Assembly (NCBI GenBank): GCA_963205275.1
Contig: CAUJIH010000106.1
Location: 1 to 64,000, forward strand
From: Verrucomicrobiota bacterium
GTDB taxonomy: Bacteria > Verrucomicrobiota > Verrucomicrobiia > Verrucomicrobiales > DEV007
Length of the DNA stretch: 64,000 bases
Direction of reading: 5' to 3'
The notes under the pieces are model-generated. The model saw only the letters and a list, made by a program, of their open reading frames with translations. It did not search any database and was not told the origin of the DNA. A program made the translations under genes and the position numbers. Shown here piece by piece: positions 2,745-14,991 of the stretch (positions within the stretch are counted from its first letter, which is position 1; every line of letters starts with the position of its first letter).

Positions 2745-5501
2745 TCAGAAATCCAGTCGTTCGGCAGGCTGGAAAGTGAAACGCACGCGGACGGGTTCAC
2801 CCGTCGCTTCTTTCGCTGAAAACTGAGCTTCGTGTTCTCCGCTCAGATTCAAATCCGGAACGGCCTCTCCCGACTTGGGTTCTGGAATTCCGGGACCGTA
2901 GAGGCGAGATGCCTCACCAGGCCAGAAGAGGACGAATTGGCCTTCCGTGACCTCACCGAGCCATGTCCATGTCTGATCTCCGAGACGGATGACTGGATCG
3001 ACGACCTTCGCTCCCTTGGGCACATGGAGTTGCACCCCCACTCGTGCACCAGCGGAGGGAATCGAGACTTTCCAAGAACTCCCGGATTTCACCTGATCTC
3101 GCCAGACGGCATAGATGACTTTTTGCAAATATTCTTTTCCGTTGGCGGTCAGGAGACGATATTCACGACGTTTCGCCAGCAGCTCCGGCTCGGAATCACC
3201 AGGTGTGATTTTTCTCATCTCCGGATCGATGCGCAACTGCTTGCGAATCGCTTCCGGAAGCTTGCCAGAAAGGCGCAACTTCTCATAGCGGGCAATCAGA
3301 TCGAGGATTTCACCCGTGAAAGGATGGGCGGCTGCTGCATCCACCGAGACTTGAAAGGACATGGAGGAATCGTAGCCAAGAGTAGCTCCGAGGACATATT
3401 CGAACATGTCAGGCGTGCACGTGGGGTCGTAGCCGTAATACCATCCAATATCCAGCGGCATCAGATTTTTCTCCATCCAGTCAAAACCGCCAGAGCGCTG
3501 ATCCAGATAGCCCTTCAGGTCGCCATGCCCGTCAGCGGACGCACTACGAGCCAGTGCATGCCAAGAGTAATGACTGTAACTGCTGCCTTGGAGGAGAGTA
3601 TTCTTATCCGCCAAATGATCGTAAAACGCTTTGTGCAGACGGGCATTGTAATACCAGTGTTCGCCCTGAAGACGCTCTGAGCCATCGAAATAGACCATCT
3701 GAATCCCGCAAGTATTCGCCACATGCGCGAAATTCGCTGCGACTTCATCGGCTAAGGTCGTATCCAGATCGTACATGTGATAGCCATAAGCCCGGACTAG
3801 GTGACGAATCACCGTCCCTGCTGGGTGTGCTACGGCTTTCGTCCCCACATGGCCGCGCTTGCACTCGGCAAAGCCGACGGGAGATTGACTCTTCGAGGTA
3901 TATTTGATCAATTCGTCACCGATTTGTAGAATCGTCCCGGCTCCTGTATATCCGCCATCTTCGTCAGGGAACTCGGTCGGAAATTCCTTCAGAGGTAGAA
4001 AGACATCCGTCGCAGAGACATCCGCAGCCAGCGTCGCCGTCGCCCCCTTGACGAGGCGAGGATCAGGCACGGGGGTGAGGTAGGAATCAGGCGAATAGAT
4101 CGACGGAGCGAGAAAATGCAGTCCGACATGAAACCCCGCTGCTTTAAATTGGTCGAGTGTGCGCTTGAGTCCCTCCAGACCATCGGGATAGCGGTCCGTA
4201 TTAATATTGTAATGCCCGGTTCCCTTCGCCCACGATTCCTGACCGAAGAGGACCGTATCGAAGCCTCCGCGCTTCGCCAATGCCAAGCCCTGTTCCACCT
4301 GGGATTCGCGGAAATTGGTGAGAAAAAGGTAGGATCGCTTGATTCGAGGCGAGAGCTTATTCCAGACTCCATCCAGCTTAGGACTCGGCAGTCCAGCAGC
4401 CTCCTCAAAGCGTTGGAGCACTTGAGGAAATTGATCTTCCTTGCAGGCGATCACGCCGAAGGTCGCCGGCTCGATCCCATGTTCTTTCACGGTTTCCGCG
4501 CTGAGATGTCGGACGGGGAAGGAAAACATAGGCGAGGAGGGATCTTCGAAATCTTCCAGAGGAATCGTGATGGACTTGCCTTCACGCTCGATCACAGCCT
4601 CGATCTGATCCACCAGACAGGTGACAGTGGTATCAGCGGGGAGTCCGTTGTAATAGAGACTCACGCCCATGATCCGATCATAGTGGAGTGTATTGAGTGC
4701 GGGCTTGGTCAGTGTCATCTGCTGCCAGCCTGTGAAATTGATGGGAATGTAGTCGTCGCGATATCCGCCAGCATTGTCGTGAAGCTGGATTTTCAGCGAC
4801 TGCCCTTTCCCATCGCCGTGGACCCACGCACGGATCGCCTGACAGCCCGTGAGATCAAGCGGAGTACCGAGGTAGCGTCCGCTCATGCTCCATCCACCAG
4901 GTTTGGCATCGCAACTGGCCGTGAACTGTCCCGCGTAATTCCCCACTTTTCCGGGACTAATGCGCGTCAGATCGTGCTTGCAGCCGTCGCGATCTGCCTG
5001 GCTCGTCCGATTATTCTGAGAGGTCGCGTGAACATTAGGCGTAGCTGCCATGATGGCCAAGCGATTCCCCTCAAAGGAGGCGCTGTTGAGCGTACCACTC
5101 ACTTCTGCTTCCAACGGCGTGGCGAGAGTAAATATTGTAAGCCGATCCGCTGGCGAACTGAGATCGAGCTTGGAAAGTCGAAAGAGAGCAAAGCCCTCGC
5201 CTTTCGTGATCTCGAACTCAGCTCTTCCACTTCCGGAAAACTCTGCGACGAGGCTTTTTTCTGAGAGTTGCAGCTTGGTCGCAGGATAAGTGACTCCCCT
5301 GCTCTGGACAGCGATCACGGGTTGATTCGACTTCGGCCAAGCCTTGCCCCCTGAAAATTCAATCCAGGCTTGCGCATCGGGTTCTAGCGCCAATCGCGCC
5401 GGACCGAGTTCCAGCCATCCTGCGCTACTACTCAGGGTGGTGACGAGCCAGAGAGCACTCAGTGCTCCGAACTTCTTCCATTTGTCTTGAGTCAATGTCA
5501 T
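2745..5501 (-). CDS. Large secreted glycoside-hydrolase-like protein (918 aa)
   Basis: Long ORF with N-terminal signal-like WKKFGALSALWLVTTLSSSAGW; central TIM-barrel-like region (FDTVLFGQESW..., GLKRTLDQFKAAGFHVGLHFL, QMVYFDGSE). Confidence 0.75.
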   Translation of the reverse strand: MTLTQDKWKKFGALSALWLVTTLSSSAGWLELGPARLALEPDAQAWIEFSGGKAWPKSNQPVIAVQSRGVTYPATKLQLSEKSLVAEFSGSGRAEFEITKGEGFALFRLSKLDLSSPADRLTIFTLATPLEAEVSGTLNSASFEGNRLAIMAATPNVHATSQNNRTSQADRDGCKHDLTRISPGKVGNYAGQFTASCDAKPGGWSMSGRYLGTPLDLTGCQAIRAWVHGDGKGQSLKIQLHDNAGGYRDDYIPINFTGWQQMTLTKPALNTLHYDRIMGVSLYYNGLPADTTVTCLVDQIEAVIEREGKSITIPLEDFEDPSSPMFSFPVRHLSAETVKEHGIEPATFGVIACKEDQFPQVLQRFEEAAGLPSPKLDGVWNKLSPRIKRSYLFLTNFRESQVEQGLALAKRGGFDTVLFGQESWAKGTGHYNINTDRYPDGLEGLKRTLDQFKAAGFHVGLHFLAPSIYSPDSYLTPVPDPRLVKGATATLAADVSATDVFLPLKEFPTEFPDEDGGYTGAGTILQIGDELIKYTSKSQSPVGFAECKRGHVGTKAVAHPAGTVIRHLVRAYGYHMYDLDTTLADEVAANFAHVANTCGIQMVYFDGSERLQGEHWYYNARLHKAFYDHLADKNTLLQGSSYSHYSWHALARSASADGHGDLKGYLDQRSGGFDWMEKNLMPLDIGWYYGYDPTCTPDMFEYVLGATLGYDSSMSFQVSVDAAAAHPFTGEILDLIARYEKLRLSGKLPEAIRKQLRIDPEMRKITPGDSEPELLAKRREYRLLTANGKEYLQKVIYAVWRDQVKSGSSWKVSIPSAGARVGVQLHVPKGAKVVDPVIRLGDQTWTWLGEVTEGQFVLFWPGEASRLYGPGIPEPKSGEAVPDLNLSGEHEAQFSAKEATGEPVRVRFTFQPAERLDF

Positions 5502-5595
5502 TCTGATCAGAGTAGTAGTCGAAAATCATCGCTTTGACTAGCTCAATGCATATGAGAGCTTGAAAGAGTACATCTGCTGCGATAAGAGAGTGAGG

Positions 5596-6882
5596 ATGAA
5601 ACATCCACTGACTGGCAGTCTCCTGATCCCCCTTGTGATCCTACTGATACAGACGGGCCTGATTGCAAGTCAATGCGCAGCAGAAGAACGTGATTCCCTT
5701 CTCGCGTTCGACCAGGTGATGAACGAGGTGCTCCGAATCAATGAAATCCCCGGAGCGACTCTCTGCTTGGTAAAGGATGGGAAATTGATCTATGCGAAGG
5801 GATTTGGCCTAGCTGATGAGGACAAAAAGCTGCCTGCACAGGTCGATTCCGTGTATCGGATCGCGAGTTTGTCAAAGTGCATCACAGCAGTCGCGACCGT
5901 GCAACTGGTGGAACAGGGAAAACTGAAGCTCACGGATCCCGTCTTTTCCCTTCTGAAGCTGAAGCCCTATCTAAAAGCAGGCGAGATCTCCGATCATCGA
6001 CTGGATGACATCACGGTGGAGCACCTATTGCGACATCGAGCCGGATGGGATGACAAGGCACCGAATGCGCCACGCTGGGGAGCGATAACCGCCCAAAAAG
6101 TGATGGGGCTGAATCGCTTCGCAACGACGGAAGAAGTGATCCGGGTAATGATGCGCGAGCCGCTGAATTTCGATCCAGGATCGCGGATGGCGTATTCCAA
6201 CTTCGGCTATCTGGTGCTCGGGCGAGTCATTGAAGCGGCGTCTGGCCAAAGCTATGAAGACTACGTGACGAAAAACGTTCTCCTGCCTCTGGGAATGACC
6301 CATACCAGACTCGCAAAAACGGCGCAGAAGGACGCATGGCCGAAGGAAGTCTGCTACTACGATGAAAACCGCGAACGAAAACCGGCGCCCTTCGGTGGCG
6401 AAAAAGGGACGCCCGTGACGATCCCGTATCGCTACAACTACATGGAGCGCCTCGATTCCTTCGGTGGCTGGACTTCATCCGGGATCGACCTCGCCCGCTT
6501 CATGAGGGCCTTTGACGACCCCGAGCACTGCGAGATTCTCAGCGCAGAAAGCATTCACAAAATGTGGTCGGCGTGGAAGGCTCTACCCCCAGAACTCACA
6601 GAGAAGGACGGGAGCCAATATTATGGTCTCGGATGGTCCGTGAAAGTTCGTGGAGTGGGCCAATACGACACCTCCCATACGGGACGACTCCCAGGGACAT
6701 CGGCCTTATTATCTAGGCATCATGACGGACTGCACTGGGTCGCGCTGATGAATCGCCCGATGGCACAAGTGGGAGAGAAAAAGTTCACGACGAAAGAGTT
6801 GGATCGAAGACTCAGCGAAGCAGCGCAGTCCGTGAAGAACTGGCCTAAAGAAGATTTGTTCTCTAAGTTTCCGGAAAAGTAG
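5596..6882 (+). CDS. Serine hydrolase, beta-lactamase/class C penicillin-binding-like (secreted)
   Basis: ORF 5560..6882 (TTG); ATG at 5596 with signal peptide; SLSK (SxxK) in VYRIASLSKCITAVATVQLVEQGKL; YSN in MAYSNFGYLVLGRVIE. Confidence 0.9.
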   Translation: MKHPLTGSLLIPLVILLIQTGLIASQCAAEERDSLLAFDQVMNEVLRINEIPGATLCLVKDGKLIYAKGFGLADEDKKLPAQVDSVYRIASLSKCITAVATVQLVEQGKLKLTDPVFSLLKLKPYLKAGEISDHRLDDITVEHLLRHRAGWDDKAPNAPRWGAITAQKVMGLNRFATTEEVIRVMMREPLNFDPGSRMAYSNFGYLVLGRVIEAASGQSYEDYVTKNVLLPLGMTHTRLAKTAQKDAWPKEVCYYDENRERKPAPFGGEKGTPVTIPYRYNYMERLDSFGGWTSSGIDLARFMRAFDDPEHCEILSAESIHKMWSAWKALPPELTEKDGSQYYGLGWSVKVRGVGQYDTSHTGRLPGTSALLSRHHDGLHWVALMNRPMAQVGEKKFTTKELDRRLSEAAQSVKNWPKEDLFSKFPEK

Positions 6883-7671: not shown

Positions 7672-7701
7672 TTGCACAGATTACATTCGTAATCTTATAA
7701 T
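7672..7701 (+). promoter_or_regulatory. Probable sigma70-type promoter of the BlaI/M56 operon
   Basis: TTGCAC (7672-7677), 18-nt spacer, TATAAT (7696-7701), about 36 bp upstream of ATG 7738. Confidence 0.65.
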
Positions 7702-7713
7702 TACATCTGTAAT
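7679..7713. promoter_or_regulatory. BlaI/MecI-type operator: two adjacent dyads overlapping the promoter
   Basis: GATTAC-ATTC-GTAATC (7679-7694) and ATTACA-TC-TGTAAT (7700-7713), both perfect; the TACA..TGTA core matches the known BlaI/MecI operator style. Confidence 0.75.
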
Positions 7714-7737
7714 CCAAAAACTATTACCTTCTGCTTT

Positions 7738-8142
7738 ATGGCCCAATCTTCTAGCACTCCTCCTCCACGCATCACTGAAGCCGAATGGGCTGTCATGAGG
7801 GTGTTATGGGAGCTGGAGGAGGCCTCGCTCGGCGAAGTGGTGCGTAGACTCGACCATCCTGACTGGAAGCCACGTACAGTACAGACACTGGTGCGGCGAC
7901 TGGTGGAGAAGGGCGCGCTGGCGGTAGAGGCACAAGGTCGCGATTTTCGCTATCGCCCGGCAGTGAGTCAGAATGAATGCCAGATGGACGAAGGCAGATC
8001 ATTTTTGCAGAGAGTGTTTGATGGTCAACTGACGCCCTTCATCGCCGCTCTTGTGGACAAACGGCAAATCAGTAAAGATGAACTTCAACAGCTTCGCGAC
8101 CTGCTTGATGCTGCTGAAAACAAAATTCACGATAAGCCATGA
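7738..8142 (+). CDS. BlaI/MecI/CopY family transcriptional repressor
   Basis: ITEAEWAVMRVLWELEEASLGEVVRRLDHPDWKPRTVQTLVRRLVEKGAL winged-helix BlaI signature. Confidence 0.93.
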   Translation: MAQSSSTPPPRITEAEWAVMRVLWELEEASLGEVVRRLDHPDWKPRTVQTLVRRLVEKGALAVEAQGRDFRYRPAVSQNECQMDEGRSFLQRVFDGQLTPFIAALVDKRQISKDELQQLRDLLDAAENKIHDKP

Positions 8143-9668
8143 ACATGTCATCTTTATTCGACTGGCTACTGCAAACGAGTGCGGAGGCATCCGTGCTCAT
8201 CTGCGCCCTGCTACTGTTGCGTCGAATTTTGGGAAAGCGTTTGCCTCCCGGCTGGCGGATCGCGTTGTGGATGGTGATCATCGGGAAATTGATACTGCCT
8301 GTATCGTTCTCATTTATGCCCGGGCTTGGTTCATTCTGGAAGAGCAAAACTCAAAGCGATTCAGCAGTCGTCGAATTCATCGACATGGGACCTGCAGATG
8401 AGATTGCTCCTAGGACGAGTCCTTCCGTGCTCACTCCCTCTATGGCATGGAGTATGCATGAGATTCTCACATTCATCTGGCTCGCTGGCATAGTGATGAC
8501 GCTGATGGTGACGCTGGTGCGTGATGCAGCCTTCCGACGTAAGCTTCGTGCAATGCGTGCATCAAATGACGCTGCACTTGATCGAATGATCAGCGAGATT
8601 TCGAATGAACTCGGACTTCGCCGAGTGCCGCAGGTCCGGATTACAGAGGCTGACACCGTGCCTGCAGTGAGCGGATTACTCCATTCAATCTTGATTCTCC
8701 CACGCAACTGGCGCGATCTGTTGCAGGGAGATTCGATGATCCTTGTGCTGCGGCACGAGCTTTCTCATCTGAAGCATCACGATCTCTGGTGGAACTGGGC
8801 GACGCTGTTGGTGAATGCCGTGCATTGGTTCAACCCTCTGGTCTGGCTTGCTGCCGCCGAGTTTCGTGAGGATCGCGAGTTGCGATGCGATGCGACGGCG
8901 CTCGACACATGCTCGCCGCAGCAGCGTATGGAATATGGACGCGCGCTTCTCTACTTTCAGGAACACTTCTCCGCACCCGCTGCCATGACAGGGCTGGCTC
9001 CGTTCGTGCGCAACCATTCTGCCCTGCATCAACGCATACTCATGATTACCCAGCCTACAATCACTCGCCCTTGGCTCCACTCAGTCATCGCCTTGTCTCT
9101 CGGCCTTCTCGTTTGCGCCGCTTTCGGTGCTGATCGCCCGGAAGATGACAAAGATGCCAACCGATCCCGCGACGGGGAACACTCTCGCACTGGTCCTCGC
9201 GATGGAGAACGTCCTCGCACTGGTCCTCGCGATGAGGAACATCCTCGCACTGGTCCTCGCGATGGGGAACGTCCTCGCACTGGTCCTCGCGATGGGGAAC
9301 GCCCCCGCACGGGTCCTCGTGATGAGGAACGTCCTCGCACTGGTCCTCGCGATGAGGAAAAGCCTCGTGCGAACCGTCAGAAAGATGGAGAACGCACGTC
9401 GGACACCCCGGCTCATGCGGACTCGCTAGTGCTTCGAGTAGTTGATGGTGGCGAGAACGTAATCGTTGGTGACGAAAAAGTGCCGATGAATCGTTTGCGT
9501 CATCATCTCAGCCAGACGCTTCCTAATTATGCAGGAGCACGCGTGACCGTCGAGGCGGACGACGATATTCCATTCAAGACGGTGGGCCAAGTGCTCGATG
9601 CAGCCCGCGACAATGGCGCGAAAGGTGCGCAGATTCAAAGCACACCCGAAACCAAAGGTAAAGACTAA
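8139..9668 (+). CDS. M56 (BlaR1-like) membrane metallopeptidase with C-terminal repeat linker and ExbD/TolR-like domain
   Basis: ATGA overlap with blaI-like gene; multiple TM segments; HELSH zinc motif in LVLRHELSHLKHHDLWWNW; last TM PWLHSVIALSLGLLVCAAFGA; C-terminal LVLRVVDGGENVIVGDEKVPMNRLRHHLSQTLP...VTVEADDDIPFKTVGQVLDAARDNGAKGAQIQS. Confidence 0.88.
   Translation: MNMSSLFDWLLQTSAEASVLICALLLLRRILGKRLPPGWRIALWMVIIGKLILPVSFSFMPGLGSFWKSKTQSDSAVVEFIDMGPADEIAPRTSPSVLTPSMAWSMHEILTFIWLAGIVMTLMVTLVRDAAFRRKLRAMRASNDAALDRMISEISNELGLRRVPQVRITEADTVPAVSGLLHSILILPRNWRDLLQGDSMILVLRHELSHLKHHDLWWNWATLLVNAVHWFNPLVWLAAAEFREDRELRCDATALDTCSPQQRMEYGRALLYFQEHFSAPAAMTGLAPFVRNHSALHQRILMITQPTITRPWLHSVIALSLGLLVCAAFGADRPEDDKDANRSRDGEHSRTGPRDGERPRTGPRDEEHPRTGPRDGERPRTGPRDGERPRTGPRDEERPRTGPRDEEKPRANRQKDGERTSDTPAHADSLVLRVVDGGENVIVGDEKVPMNRLRHHLSQTLPNYAGARVTVEADDDIPFKTVGQVLDAARDNGAKGAQIQSTPETKGKD
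9171..9380 (+). repeat. In-frame 30-bp tandem repeat, six good copies plus one degenerate copy
   Basis: Unit gat(g/a)(g/a)ggaacgtcctcgcactggtcctcgc at 9171, 9201, 9231, 9261, 9291, 9321 and degenerate at 9351; encodes D[GE]E[HR][PS]RTGPR. Confidence 0.95.
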
Positions 9669-9684: not shown

Positions 9685-12180
9685 TCAACTCTCAGCCTCT
9701 TCACTGAGGAGGAAATGGAGTTCCTTCAGCCCGTCAGGAACTTGAAACAGATGATCCTGCTTCTGCAGATTGCTTTCACTGACGAGAAAATGCTCCGGTA
9801 GCCGTACCAACGGAGGCAGAACGCCCGCACCCGAGGCTCGCAAGGTCACACGACAGTGCTCGCGATCCGTCATTTGCGCCTCCAGAGAAACGCTGCCGAG
9901 TGGAGTATGCAGATTCCGAAGAAGCGTTGTCCCATTTTCCACCAACCACAGCCAAGGAACACCTCCGAGTAGAGTCACCATTCCGTCATGCTCGAAATAC
10001 AGACTGTTCAACATCATTTCGAGAATGCGACCATTTCCGCTACCGTTCGGCTGCCAAGGGACGAAGGCGGGATTGCTCTTGGCGAAGCGCTCCTGCACTT
10101 GGTGCGCATCCTGCGTGATTCCATAGCGCAGATTGACACGATTCGCGGCGAAGGCCTTCTTCCACTCGCCTCGACGCAGCCAAGCGTGATGCCAAGGCAA
10201 TTCACCGGTCCCGATGTAGGCGATTTCGCGATCCATTTTACCGACGAAAAAGCCGTCCATGAGATTCTTCTCTACATATTCTTCATATCGGCAAAAGCGC
10301 TCGGATCGAACATCAAGCAACCCCGTATAGGCGAGGATCATCGCTCCGCAGATGCGCTCGAAGCCAGGTTGGATCTTTGTCTCGCGACCCGTGAGAATCT
10401 TTCGCTCGATGTAGCCGTCAGGGCGTGTCATCCCTTCAATTGCTCGCGTTAGATCGGCTCGATAGCTCTCTAGTTCTTTTCGAAACTCTTCTGCACGCTC
10501 ATGCTGCATTCGCTCGAGCAAAGCAACGGCTTTCTCCATTCCGAAAAATGTGAATGAGTCTGTGATGGAGACGATATACCCGATGTCTCCATCTGTGGCA
10601 CATCCGAAGGGCATTAACCCGTAGTACAACGGGCGCGATCCGTCGGCATTCAGCTTTCGCGTCGCCCGCAATTCGCCGACGATCCAGCCCAGAGCTTTGA
10701 GGATCTTGGGCAGATACTCACTCAGAAATTTCTCGTCCTTTGTATACAAATAATAATCGGAGGCCAGAGCAAGAGCCGATCCTGTGGTATTTAGCCACTT
10801 CGGTCCGGTCGTCCCCACGGCTCCAGCAGTGCTGGTCAGTTCACCTTCTGGTGGATTCCCAGAATCCTGCAGGCTAAAAATAAAATCTAGCGAGCGACGC
10901 ACGACCTCGAACTGCCCGAGTCTCAGCATAGGCATGAGCATGTACATCGCCTCCCAGACCCATACGAAGTGTCTCTCTGAACTTCCGCCCTGCGTAGGCA
11001 TCAGGCTCTTCTCACGAGGAAATTGCACGCAGAGCTGGAGTGTGGAAAGCTGAAGTGCTGTAAAAATCTGATCCCATTCCTCGACGGGAAACAGCAATTG
11101 CGTATGCTTCTCCGTGAACTGCGACTGAAAGTGCGTCAGCGCTGCCACTCGATCTTCCGCAGACATAGCCTTCATGAGATGCTGCCTATCCGCATCCGTC
11201 GCCCCTTCCATGTCGGTAAGCACCGCGATTCGGAGCTGCTTCTTCTCTCCCTGCTTCATCGAAGCGGAAAAATGGAGTACGTCCTGAACGTGGTCCAGCC
11301 TCATGCAGGGAGCCACATGATGGGGGCGTCCACGCAAGGGCTTTCCTCCAAATTCCTTCTTCTCCTCCCATTCCAATTTCCAATCGACTGCCTCGACTTT
11401 GCCGATCAGCGCAGAATCGCGATAGATCGCGTTTTCCCGAAGTTGAACTCCTTCGCACGGAAGCCACTTCGAAGCATCCCAGTAAAAAGGCTGGTAGTGA
11501 TATTCGAACAGATCCGACTCCTTCTGAAAGTTGACCTTCGCTCTCACATGCGCCTCCTGGGCTCCATTGCCTTCGTTCGTCACGGTGACGACGATCCAGA
11601 GTATGCTTTGCCTCTCACCGGCAGCACGGCAGAAATAGTCGAATTCATACACCAGCCCATTACTAAAATAGCGAGCACGAGCCAGCGGATACTTCCCCTC
11701 CTCCAAGGATAGATGGGAAGCACGCATCTCGGGCACGATCGGAGGATTCTCCAGAGCGAACTGAACGATGAAAGTCTCGATTTCTCGTGCCGCGAGTACG
11801 GCAGGCCGGTCCTTGGTGGAGAGTTTCGGAAGCACCCGACGACGACAGACGTTCAGCGCCGAATCAAGGTGAATGAAATCCGGATTACCGACGGGCTGGA
11901 TGGGCAAATGCTCCGTCAAAGGCGGGATAAAGGATTCGCCCTTGTCGCTGAGGATCTGGATCCACGAATCGTGACCGATCTCGGCATAAGTCGTCGCTCT
12001 TCGATGCGCCGCAGCTGGCGAGGAGGCTGACAGCGCAGAGGCTGCGGGCGCTGCCTGCTTCGACTCTTCCGCAGAGAGCACTACCGGGACCGCACTCGCA
12101 CTCATCGCAGTGGCGGAGAGAAAATTCCGACGGGAAAGGCGACGGTTCGGAGAGCAAGTGGGATCAGTGGAATCGTTCAT
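9685..12180 (-). CDS. Tat-exported protein, six-hairpin-glycosidase-like (831 aa)
   Basis: Tat-like N-terminus RRLSRRNFLSATAMSASAVPVVLSAEES; WVWEAMYMLMPMLRLGQ..., alpha-helical barrel-like middle region. Confidence 0.75.
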   Translation of the reverse strand: MNDSTDPTCSPNRRLSRRNFLSATAMSASAVPVVLSAEESKQAAPAASALSASSPAAAHRRATTYAEIGHDSWIQILSDKGESFIPPLTEHLPIQPVGNPDFIHLDSALNVCRRRVLPKLSTKDRPAVLAAREIETFIVQFALENPPIVPEMRASHLSLEEGKYPLARARYFSNGLVYEFDYFCRAAGERQSILWIVVTVTNEGNGAQEAHVRAKVNFQKESDLFEYHYQPFYWDASKWLPCEGVQLRENAIYRDSALIGKVEAVDWKLEWEEKKEFGGKPLRGRPHHVAPCMRLDHVQDVLHFSASMKQGEKKQLRIAVLTDMEGATDADRQHLMKAMSAEDRVAALTHFQSQFTEKHTQLLFPVEEWDQIFTALQLSTLQLCVQFPREKSLMPTQGGSSERHFVWVWEAMYMLMPMLRLGQFEVVRRSLDFIFSLQDSGNPPEGELTSTAGAVGTTGPKWLNTTGSALALASDYYLYTKDEKFLSEYLPKILKALGWIVGELRATRKLNADGSRPLYYGLMPFGCATDGDIGYIVSITDSFTFFGMEKAVALLERMQHERAEEFRKELESYRADLTRAIEGMTRPDGYIERKILTGRETKIQPGFERICGAMILAYTGLLDVRSERFCRYEEYVEKNLMDGFFVGKMDREIAYIGTGELPWHHAWLRRGEWKKAFAANRVNLRYGITQDAHQVQERFAKSNPAFVPWQPNGSGNGRILEMMLNSLYFEHDGMVTLLGGVPWLWLVENGTTLLRNLHTPLGSVSLEAQMTDREHCRVTLRASGAGVLPPLVRLPEHFLVSESNLQKQDHLFQVPDGLKELHFLLSEEAES

Positions 12181-12370: not shown

Positions 12371-13549
12371 ATGACTCTGTATCCCCTGCCTGTCGCACTT
12401 TTCCTGATCGCTCTCAACTTTTCCTCGGAAGCATGGGCCGTAGATTGGGAGAAGCAAGCGGCGGAAGATGCCAAACAGGATCGCACCAGTATCGCCTACG
12501 ACGGAGAATCGCCGAACAAACTGGTCTGCGACACGACCCTGCGCCAGCTACCGGATGGCTCCTGGACCCTACTGATGCTCGCCGGAGATGACTTTGAACC
12601 CTCACCGAAAAATTACATCGGCCTGACGCGCAGCACTGATCAGGGAAAGACCTGGTCAGCTCTGGAACCGCTCCATCTCGGATTCGCTCGCGAGGGGAAA
12701 ACCAGTGGTCAGTGTCCCACAGAGCTGATGGTGTCTGGCAAGCGCAGCACCGTGTTCTTCTCCACGCATTCGCAGACTTGGGGGCGAGACTGGAAATCCT
12801 GGATGGCTTTCAGCGACGACGCCTGTCGTACCTGGAGCGATCCTCAGCCAGTTCCTGGACGGCTGGCTGACTTCACCTTTATCCGCAATCACATCGTAAC
12901 CACCGACGGACGAATCCTAATACCGTTTCAACATTACCTCGGCCCTCCGGCGGGAACACCACCACCTCCACCCGAGGAGAAGCCGTGGCATAAGTCACTG
13001 GCCCACTATGTCAGCAATCCTCGCAATGGGGTGCTGATGAGCAATGACGGCGGCAAGACCTGGACTGAGCACGGCGACATCCGTATCACTGATAACGACC
13101 GCTATCACGGATGGGCGGAAAACAACATCGTCGAACTCAGCGATGGCCATATCGCCATGATGATCCGAGCAGATCGACTCGGCGGCGTTCTCTACTATGC
13201 CGAATCAGAGGACGGTGGTAGAACTTGGCCGGAGTTCGCCCATAAAACAGACATCCCGAATCCTGGATCGAAAGCAACCCTGTACCCTCTCGGAGGTGAC
13301 AGGGTTGCAATTCTACACAATCCGAATCCGAAACATCGCAGTCCCCTCGCCCTCTGGATCAGCTTCGATGGCATGAAGACCTGGCCCTATCGCCGCGTCC
13401 TAGTCCCCGAATCTTCTGACGGCCCCAAAGGTCACCTGAATTACCCCGACGGCTTCGTTAGTGGTGATAGGCAGTGGTTGCATTTCGCCTTTGACGACAA
13501 TCGCCACCGTGCTGTCTATTATGGGGCGAAACTACCTCCCCTGCCATGA
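12371..13549 (+). CDS. Sialidase-fold (BNR/Asp-box) exported protein
   Basis: Signal peptide; Asp-box motifs [44 protein letters not shown]. Confidence 0.9.
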
Positions 13550-13617
13550 AGGCAAACTCCTTTATGCTTTTCGTACATTCCTCGTTCATTTGGAGTTCCG
13601 AATTACGCTTCCCTACG

Positions 13618-14991
13618 ATGAAAAAGTTGCTTTACTTCCTTCTTCTCGTCTCTCTTTGGATCATCAGCGATCGCGTTTTTTTGAGTTCTGCTTCGGCACA
13701 AACTACTTCTACGCAGACCCCGGTCCCCAATCGATGGCGCGGGGCGCTGGCAGACTATGACTCTGAGCCACGCCTGCCGAATGGCCGTGTCGATGTGGAG
13801 ACCCTCGTCGCTCGACTCAAGGAACTCGGCATCTCCACCTACTACTACCTCGTCTGGCATGCAGCGACCGACTGGGACGATCTGAAGCTCTTTCTTCCAA
13901 AAGCCGCCGAGGCTGGTCTGGATGTGTGGGTGTATCTGGTACCTCCGTCCGAAAGCAAACCGATCGCAAAACTGAGCTCCGAACCCTTCGGCATGGACTA
14001 TCAGCGCTGGGCAGAAGAAATCGCAAAATTGTCACTTGAACACAAGAACCTAACAGGCTGGGTGATCGACGACTTTTACGCCAATTACAAATTCTACACT
14101 CCGGATTATGTGCGTGAGATGCAGGCCAAGGCAAAGATGATCAACCCAAAGCTCCGCTTCTATCCACTGATGTATTTCCGGGAGATTAAACGCGACTTTA
14201 TAGAGCAATATCGCGAGGTGATCGATGGAGTCGTCGTAGCGTATCCCGAGGATCGTGAGGAAATTGATTCGGCTTGGGGATTGTTGAACGACGCACTGCT
14301 CACTCAGCCGGGAGAGATCAGCTACCCCTGGGGTCAGCCTTCGAAAGCCGGAGACTTTCTCATGGCCAGTCAGCAGGTAAAAGTCGGGTCTGGGGATAAA
14401 CTCGTGATTCACTTTCAAGAGAAAGACGATTTCACAGCACCCACGATGGGCTATCATTTCAAACAGCTCCTAGTGAACGATGAGGTCGCATGGGAGGAAG
14501 ACATCGGTGGCGGAGAAAAGGGAGCGAAGGAAGTCACAGTGGACCTCACTTCGCTCGTGAAAGGAAAGAGCGAAATCACACTAGCCTTCCGAATTCTCGA
14601 CAAGAAAGGAGTCAGTAACTTTGGGTTTCGTTGGCAGGTGCGTAATCTGCGTACCGAAGGACTAACGCTCGCCGCAGACATTTCTGAGCCAGTAAAATGG
14701 CAAGTCACTCAGAAAGGGGCCTTCGAGACTGGCTTCGGACCAGCGACGAAGAAACCTGCCCACAGTTTCCATATACCTTTCATCGTGATGACATCCGGAC
14801 AAGCGAGTGAGTTCTTAATGCGACACGGTACCCCCGCCTCTCCGGAACGGATGGCGGAATGGGTGAGCATGTGCCTCGACGCCTGGCGTGACGGCAAGTG
14901 CGATGGGGTAGTTACCTACTGCCTCGACAAGCGCCCCGGCAGTCGCGTGTTCGATCTCTCACGGGATTTATTTCGCGGAGCGGCGAAGTGA
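13618..14991 (+). CDS. Secreted glycoside-hydrolase-like (TIM-barrel) protein
   Basis: ORF 13546..14991 overlaps previous stop by ATGA; internal ATG at 13618 gives signal peptide MKKLLYFLLLVSLWIISDRVFLSSASA; GISTYYYLVWHAATDWDDLKLFLPKAAEAGLDVWVYLVPPS. Confidence 0.72.
   Translation: MKKLLYFLLLVSLWIISDRVFLSSASAQTTSTQTPVPNRWRGALADYDSEPRLPNGRVDVETLVARLKELGISTYYYLVWHAATDWDDLKLFLPKAAEAGLDVWVYLVPPSESKPIAKLSSEPFGMDYQRWAEEIAKLSLEHKNLTGWVIDDFYANYKFYTPDYVREMQAKAKMINPKLRFYPLMYFREIKRDFIEQYREVIDGVVVAYPEDREEIDSAWGLLNDALLTQPGEISYPWGQPSKAGDFLMASQQVKVGSGDKLVIHFQEKDDFTAPTMGYHFKQLLVNDEVAWEEDIGGGEKGAKEVTVDLTSLVKGKSEITLAFRILDKKGVSNFGFRWQVRNLRTEGLTLAADISEPVKWQVTQKGAFETGFGPATKKPAHSFHIPFIVMTSGQASEFLMRHGTPASPERMAEWVSMCLDAWRDGKCDGVVTYCLDKRPGSRVFDLSRDLFRGAAK

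Follow-up and report, generated by a model that had tools for sequence, protein, structure and literature searches.

BlaI/BlaR1-type switches are the means by which staphylococci detect penicillin. The gene pair considered here, located in a 64,000-nucleotide stretch of a Verrucomicrobiota genome that was analysed as a whole (the window), is a relative of the staphylococcal switch in which the penicillin sensor is replaced by an ExbD/TolR domain, a type that stems from the machinery powering the outer membrane. BlaR1-type switches have been studied almost only as antibiotic sensors, and here a Ton/Tol domain sits on the protease chassis and is kept in dozens of species together with identifiable operators and candidate target genes. 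The features of the locus are as follows.

7672–7701 (+): sigma-70-like promoter, TTGCAC (7672–7677), 18-bp spacer, TATAAT (7696–7701); sequence reading
7679–7694: operator 1, GATTACATTCGTAATC, arms perfectly palindromic, located in the −35/−10 interval; motif scan and sequence reading
7699–7714: operator 2, AATTACATCTGTAATC, at a distance of 20 bp from the first and overlapping −10; motif scan and sequence reading
7738–8142 (+): BlaI/MecI-type repressor, 134 aa; Pfam Penicillinase_R 5.5e-36, MecI 1sd6 E 3.6e-19
8139–9668 (+): M56-ExbD fusion protein, 509 aa; ORF, Pfam, AF2 and Foldseek
8166–9047 (+): M56/BlaR1 membrane protease module, residues 10–303; Pfam Peptidase_M56 E 9e-55, profile versus 8exp
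9075–9131 (+): TM4, residues 313–331, no acidic residue; hydropathy, AF2 helix 311–329
9168–9359 (+): 30-bp tandem repeat, 6.4 copies, encoding a (RDGERPRTGP)n polyampholyte linker; TRF
9420–9644 (+): ExbD/TolR-type periplasmic domain, about residues 428–502; Pfam PF02472, AF2, Foldseek

Composition of the fusion protein

The open reading frame of the fusion begins with ATG, proceeds in one frame through 509 codons without an internal stop and is joined to that of the repressor by an ATGA overlap. The initial annotation had read this arrangement as a BlaI-like repressor followed by an M56 protease with HELSH and several transmembrane segments, and the ORFs, the Pfam matches and four hydropathy segments (about 9–27, 41–59, 109–127 and 313–331) agree with it. 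Both the Penicillinase_R winged helix and a linked palindromic operator place the repressor in the BlaI/MecI family. In the protease HELSH corresponds to H206-E207-H210, and the zinc site is composed of H206, E207, H210 and E247, all of which are invariant among 36 sequences. A search of the PDB with the whole protein by phmmer gave no match at E 0.01, but the profile built from its M56 relatives matched S. aureus BlaR1 (8exp) with E 2.9e-35 over BlaR1 residues 3–323. In the alignment of the M56 profile with 8exp residues H201, E202, H205, D210, D246, Y261 and R294 of BlaR1, the roles of which have been described (PMC9834060), correspond with an offset of +5 to H206, E207, H210, D215, D251, Y266 and R299; D215, D251, Y266 and R299 are likewise invariant in the 36 sequences, and F289 occupies the position of the BlaR1 autocleavage P1′. 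The layout is also that of BlaR1, with three transmembrane segments, a protease predicted to be cytoplasmic, a fourth segment (SVIALSLGLLVCAAFGA) and a C-terminal domain that would be extracytoplasmic, the orientation being assigned by homology only. A penicillin-binding SxxK sensor had been reported as absent behind the last transmembrane segment, and indeed the scan of the tail after TM4 revealed no SxxK, YxN/SxN or K[TS]G motif. The NCBIfam BlaR1 model gave 140 bits against a cut-off of 400. Thus, the fusion protein is an M56/BlaR1-like protease and not a BlaR1 beta-lactam sensor.

The charged repeat linker noticed earlier proved to be the 30-bp array of 6.4 copies listed above. It lies in a 98-aa linker with 26 D/E and 25 K/R residues, which is predicted to be disordered (AF2 pLDDT below 50 at residues 364–426) and which in relatives measures between 57 and 232 aa. 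About 100 aa of tether may suffice to bring the ExbD-type domain to the wall or to proteins spanning the periplasm.

The domain at the end of this tether had been described, from its pattern, as about 80 aa of ExbD/TolR type, and an AlphaFold comparison had been proposed. Pfam ExbD (PF02472) matched residues 424–503 with E 7e-7 and 29.8 bits versus a gathering cut-off of 25.4, and the tail alone with E 8e-8. The AF2 model of residues 410–509 has the order beta-beta-beta-alpha-beta-alpha, and with the model of these last 100 aa Foldseek returned ExbD/TolR periplasmic domains as all eight best PDB matches (E 1.3e-5 to 5.5e-3; entries 8pek, 8p9r, 2pfu, 5by4, 8vgd, 8vgc and 2jwk) and no other PDB match below E 0.01. 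In the full-length model pLDDT is near 95 for the protease and mostly 92–97 for residues 429–501, and in its Foldseek search six chains of five BlaR1 entries (8exp to 8ext) ranked highest, followed by ExbD 8pek and TolR 5by4. Since a phmmer search of the PDB with the tail yielded largely noise, ExbD ranking seventh, and the fused-domain profile of relatives found ExbD first but weakly (E 0.01), it was the fold search that settled the ExbD/TolR identity. The same profile retrieves the true ExbD proteins of the window’s genome and of Verrucomicrobiota, which supports common descent. Identity to the solved ExbD/TolR structures is only about 13–21% over the fold match, so ligand-binding sites may not be kept. 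The transmembrane helix of ExbD with its conserved Asp is missing from the fusion, as profile positions before 48 are unmatched and TM4 has no acidic residue; therefore the fused domain is not an ordinary motor subunit. A gene for an ExbB/TolQ partner was not found among the identified neighbours of the fusion. By fold and profile the tail is an ExbD/TolR domain, and the protein as a whole is not an ExbD/TolR motor subunit; the proposed combination of BlaI with an M56 protease bearing such a domain in place of the penicillin-binding sensor is borne out by both domain matches and fold.

Operators and candidate targets

The blaI promoter is overlapped by two tandem palindromes (GATTAC-N4-GTAATC); a consensus scan describes the same promoter as TGCACA / 17 / TATAAT with 10/12 agreement. 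The motif recurs upstream of blaI in nearly all relatives, usually twice and 20–24 bp apart, and GATTACANNYGTAATC agrees with the 16-base consensus RNYKACANNYGTMRNY of CopY-class operators (PMC7253601). The strict pattern GATTACRNNYGTAATC occurs 12 times in 13 fusion genomes, ten times at the fusion promoter, and a fusion genome usually contains a single promoter with the strict motif; the reversed control pattern has no match in the same 13 genomes. In the window’s 4.08-Mb genome no further promoter copy of the operator was found, a result that weaker operators may have escaped. Its only other exact copy (C22:36763) was rejected, as it lies inside rpsI and does not have the R..Y spacer, and four one-mismatch sites besides operator 2 were discarded for want of this spacer as well.

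The two strict-pattern sites away from fusion promoters belong to different genomes. In one of them (G016) the operator immediately precedes a PSCyt2/PSD1 gene with DUF1501 behind it, and this pair is unlinked from the fusion. In the other (G063) it precedes a gene for a secreted coiled-coil protein that shares its charged repeats with the M56 linkers, after which comes a pectate-lyase-like gene; in G060 operator-like sites are found before an unlinked pectate-lyase-like gene. The coiled-coil protein of G063 (L181:862–1611, minus strand) occurs alone behind a BlaI-type operator, and tails similar to it are fused to other M56 proteins (L022, L023, L026 and L029).

The search for further fusions and their neighbours, suggested at the outset, disclosed a recurring operon. 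In a second family of the order blaI, the M56-ExbD gene and a pectate-lyase-like gene follow each other in 19 of 20 stretches (one of which has lost its 5′ part at a contig end), and PSCyt2 comes next in 14 stretches; in five genomes of the window’s own family the order is blaI, M56-ExbD, PSCyt2, DUF1501. Several relatives of the same genus also carry the pair alone, in conserved form. It stands alone in the window’s genome too, where the downstream neighbour is convergent and no homologue of the relatives’ PSCyt2 target was found at E below 1e-120. In relatives, then, the pair often heads an operon of uncharacterised genes and probably controls them. PSCyt genes have been described near sulfatases and pectin lyases (PMC5615132), and the pectate-lyase-like and PSCyt neighbours suggest that the output may have a carbohydrate-related function.

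Several other genes of the window deserve mention. A serine hydrolase of class-C-like beta-lactamase fold (PF00144, 1.1e-59) is encoded at 5560–6882 (+), 0.86 kb upstream of blaI; no operator precedes it, nor is there any elsewhere in the 64-kb window apart from the blaI promoter. Large putatively secreted proteins with no Pfam match at 1e-3 surround the pair (9685–12180 (−), 13546–14991 (+), 2745–5501 (−) and 1007–2800 (−)), and a BNR sialidase-like gene (12371–13549) lies close to them. The surroundings are perhaps a glycan-related island of undescribed families. A perfect 14-bp tandem duplication, (TTCGATATAGAACC)x2, was also noticed at 2707–2734, close to where two minus-strand ORFs overlap.

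Distribution and evolution of the fusion

The survey covered 75 genomes of the family, 289 of the order and a phylum sample of 388. At a threshold of at least 45 bits the ExbD-type domain was counted in 60 genomes of Verrucomicrobiales, 14 of the window’s family and 46 of the second family, and it is fused to M56 wherever checked intact. Among 20 stretches fetched from the second family the fusion is intact in 18, while one is cut by a contig end and another has a frame break inside M56; in the latter (L248 of G490) M56 is split over two frames with the ExbD part and operators intact, which may be an assembly error or recent decay. In the phylum sample fusions were found only in Verrucomicrobiales, other inspected matches being ordinary ExbD proteins, mostly of 138–195 aa. 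Three longer ORFs with ExbD matches (L150, L155 and L169) were rejected as ordinary ExbD with a spurious out-of-gene reading upstream. The fused-domain profile detected no ExbD in the fetched M56 loci outside the Verrucomicrobiales fusions.

In the maximum-likelihood tree of the M56 part the window’s protein belongs to a 16-member clade with support 100/99, all members of which carry ExbD, and in a second clade ExbD is present in five of seven members; of the remaining two, one is truncated at the end of its contig. Between close relatives the median dN/dS is about 0.35 for the ExbD part versus 0.25 for M56, and purifying selection thus acts on the ExbD part. Because of this selection and because the same single-frame fusion recurs in many genomes, it is neither an accident nor the product of a frame error, which had been named at the start as one way in which the C-terminal segment might prove separate from the protease; the other, lack of ExbD similarity, is contradicted by the profile and fold matches. 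That first description did not yet include the operators, how widely the fusion is distributed or its probable target genes.

The tail itself varies among relatives. Some relatives have the same M56 chassis and operators with an EF-hand or coiled-coil tail instead of ExbD, and the ExbD part may therefore be exchangeable for reasons other than sensing. In the second family L046 and L244 are 87% identical in M56 and 67% in ExbD, and L245 and L249 are 80% identical in M56 and 97% in ExbD (dS 0.37 versus 0.07). Such mismatches in divergence suggest that ExbD segments were exchanged between lineages, perhaps via the repeat linker. Other architectures were encountered as well. One protein (L028:1474–3129 of G051) has two tandem ExbD-like domains and is without the operators found in other relatives. 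In the C-termini of L003, L010, L011 and L019 ExbD is followed by a second charged-repeat tract and EF-hands, so that calcium may be a second input there. In Bacillota the tails of the M56 proteins L068, L069, L104 and L074 resemble, by eye, N-acetylmuramoyl-L-alanine amidase (VIDPGHGGED) or M23 peptidase, and would represent cell-wall enzymes on a BlaR1 chassis.

Possible input of the switch and its relation to known systems

Based on these data we consider it reasonably probable that the pair is a proteolytic switch of BlaI/BlaR1 type with the tethered ExbD/TolR domain as envelope sensor. BlaI dimers on the two tandem operators would cover the −35/−10 spacer and the −10 element and keep the operon off. 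The M56 protein would span the inner membrane and expose its zinc protease to the cytoplasm, as homology with BlaR1 suggests, and beyond TM4 the long flexible charged tether would carry the ExbD-type domain into the periplasm. There it may meet an envelope partner, most likely a glycan strand of peptidoglycan or an extended segment of TonB/TolA type; upon contact the dimer would change its state, the protease would cleave BlaI and the operon would be turned on. The output in relatives would be the pectate-lyase-like protein and/or the PSCyt2/PSD1–DUF1501 pair; in the window’s genome no gene besides those of the switch was found behind the operator. The choice of ligand, close to the input by envelope energisation or peptidoglycan that had been suggested at the outset, follows the published behaviour of ExbD periplasmic domains, which form dynamic dimers, bind peptidoglycan glycan chains and capture the TonB strand (PMC10771500, PMC10907165). 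Since BlaI-type repressors have been tied to peptidoglycan fragments (PMC3305447) and the tether could have the necessary reach, the fusion is taken for a sensor of envelope state. Among the points against the proposed switch, the cleavage position of S. aureus BlaI, N101-F102, is A-L in the window’s BlaI by our own reading of the sequence. In a more tentative version, rather doubtful as it stands, the tethered ExbD would be a gauge of Ton/Tol engagement, a rival of motor-borne ExbD/TolR in binding peptidoglycan or the TonB/TolA strand, so that the energised state of the envelope would set M56 activity, the cutting of BlaI and the expression of PSCyt2/DUF1501 and pectate-lyase-like genes. If true, transcription would be coupled directly to the energetics of the envelope, with neither a two-component system nor a sigma/anti-sigma pair in between.

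The same domain could also be an anchor and no sensor, keeping the protease in place at the Ton/Tol machinery or peptidoglycan, while the signal comes in by another route such as the membrane or the extracellular loop between TM2 and TM3. The loop EL1 of BlaR1 does take part in signalling (PMC9834060), and relatives with EF-hand or coiled-coil tails demonstrate that the chassis can do without ExbD; however, EL1 is poorly conserved, while purifying selection acts on the ExbD part, which persists although the linker differs greatly in length. We consider the anchor unlikely. Still less can be said for a degenerate pair that has lost its targets in the window’s genome and is left with self-regulation. 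The single BlaI, the single M56, the lack of another promoter operator in 4.08 Mb and of a close homologue of the PSCyt2 target at E below 1e-120 speak for such decay, but the pair retains all its catalytic residues, an intact ExbD fold and both operators, several solo pairs of the same genus are nevertheless conserved, and weaker operators could have been missed in a genome that is 96.5% complete; we regard this as improbable.

Direct driving or gating of the protease by proton-motive force, with the fused domain working as an ExbD/TolR subunit in an ExbB/TolQ motor, would be compatible with the genuine fold and with the eight ordinary ExbD genes that the genome possesses in addition to two TonB_C genes, but it is very improbable given the missing helix with its Asp, a TM4 devoid of acidic residues and no ExbB-type gene seen beside the fusion. 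Scarcely any credit, finally, is given to a beta-lactam sensor that delegates drug binding to another protein, such as the hydrolase at 5560–6882. The pairing of BlaI with M56, the proximity of this PF00144 gene and the M. tuberculosis BlaR1 homologue, likewise devoid of a sensor domain (PMC9834060), are in its favour, but the tail has no SxxK, SxN or KTG, the hydrolase gene has no operator, and what relatives conserve as partners of the pair are PSCyt2/DUF1501 and genes of pectate-lyase-like type.

The preferred reading, an envelope sensor on a BlaR1-type chassis, may be placed among known systems as follows. With BlaR1/MecR1–BlaI/MecI (S. aureus BlaR1, PDB 8exp–8ext) the pair shares a BlaI-type repressor adjoining a four-TM M56 zinc protease, the same catalytic and structural residues, palindromic promoter operators and a C-terminal domain after TM4 that is extracytoplasmic by homology. 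Instead of their sensor of about 250 aa, similar to class D beta-lactamases, it has the 98-aa charged tether and an ExbD/TolR domain without SxxK, and among the genes found behind the operator there is none for a beta-lactamase or PBP target. ExbD/TolR periplasmic domains (8pek, 8p9r, 8vgc/8vgd, 2pfu, 5by4 and 2jwk) agree with the tail in fold and in the succession of strands and helices, and Pfam ExbD matches the tail above its cut-off, but in the fusion this domain is hung on a protease and not on a motor, without the helix bearing the proton-path Asp and without an ExbB/TolQ neighbour. The operators resemble those of CopY/CopR and BlaI in fitting the 16-base consensus (PMC7253601), and differ in the mostly fixed GATTAC/GTAATC arms of this lineage and in their tandem arrangement 20–24 bp apart.

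Exchangeable extracytoplasmic tails are a property of M56 proteins in the same and other phyla, where unrelated EF-hand, coiled-coil, secretin-like, regulatory and amidase-like tails were seen; an ExbD tail was detected by the fused-domain profile in none of the fetched M56 loci outside the Verrucomicrobiales fusions. M56-TonB fusions exist in Bacteroidota. A limited search of the literature disclosed no description of an M56-ExbD fusion, which is not proof of its absence. Other tails occur commonly on M56 proteins of the fetched loci; the chassis is therefore a known one, and what is new is the variant with ExbD, its new element being the input domain of the switch.
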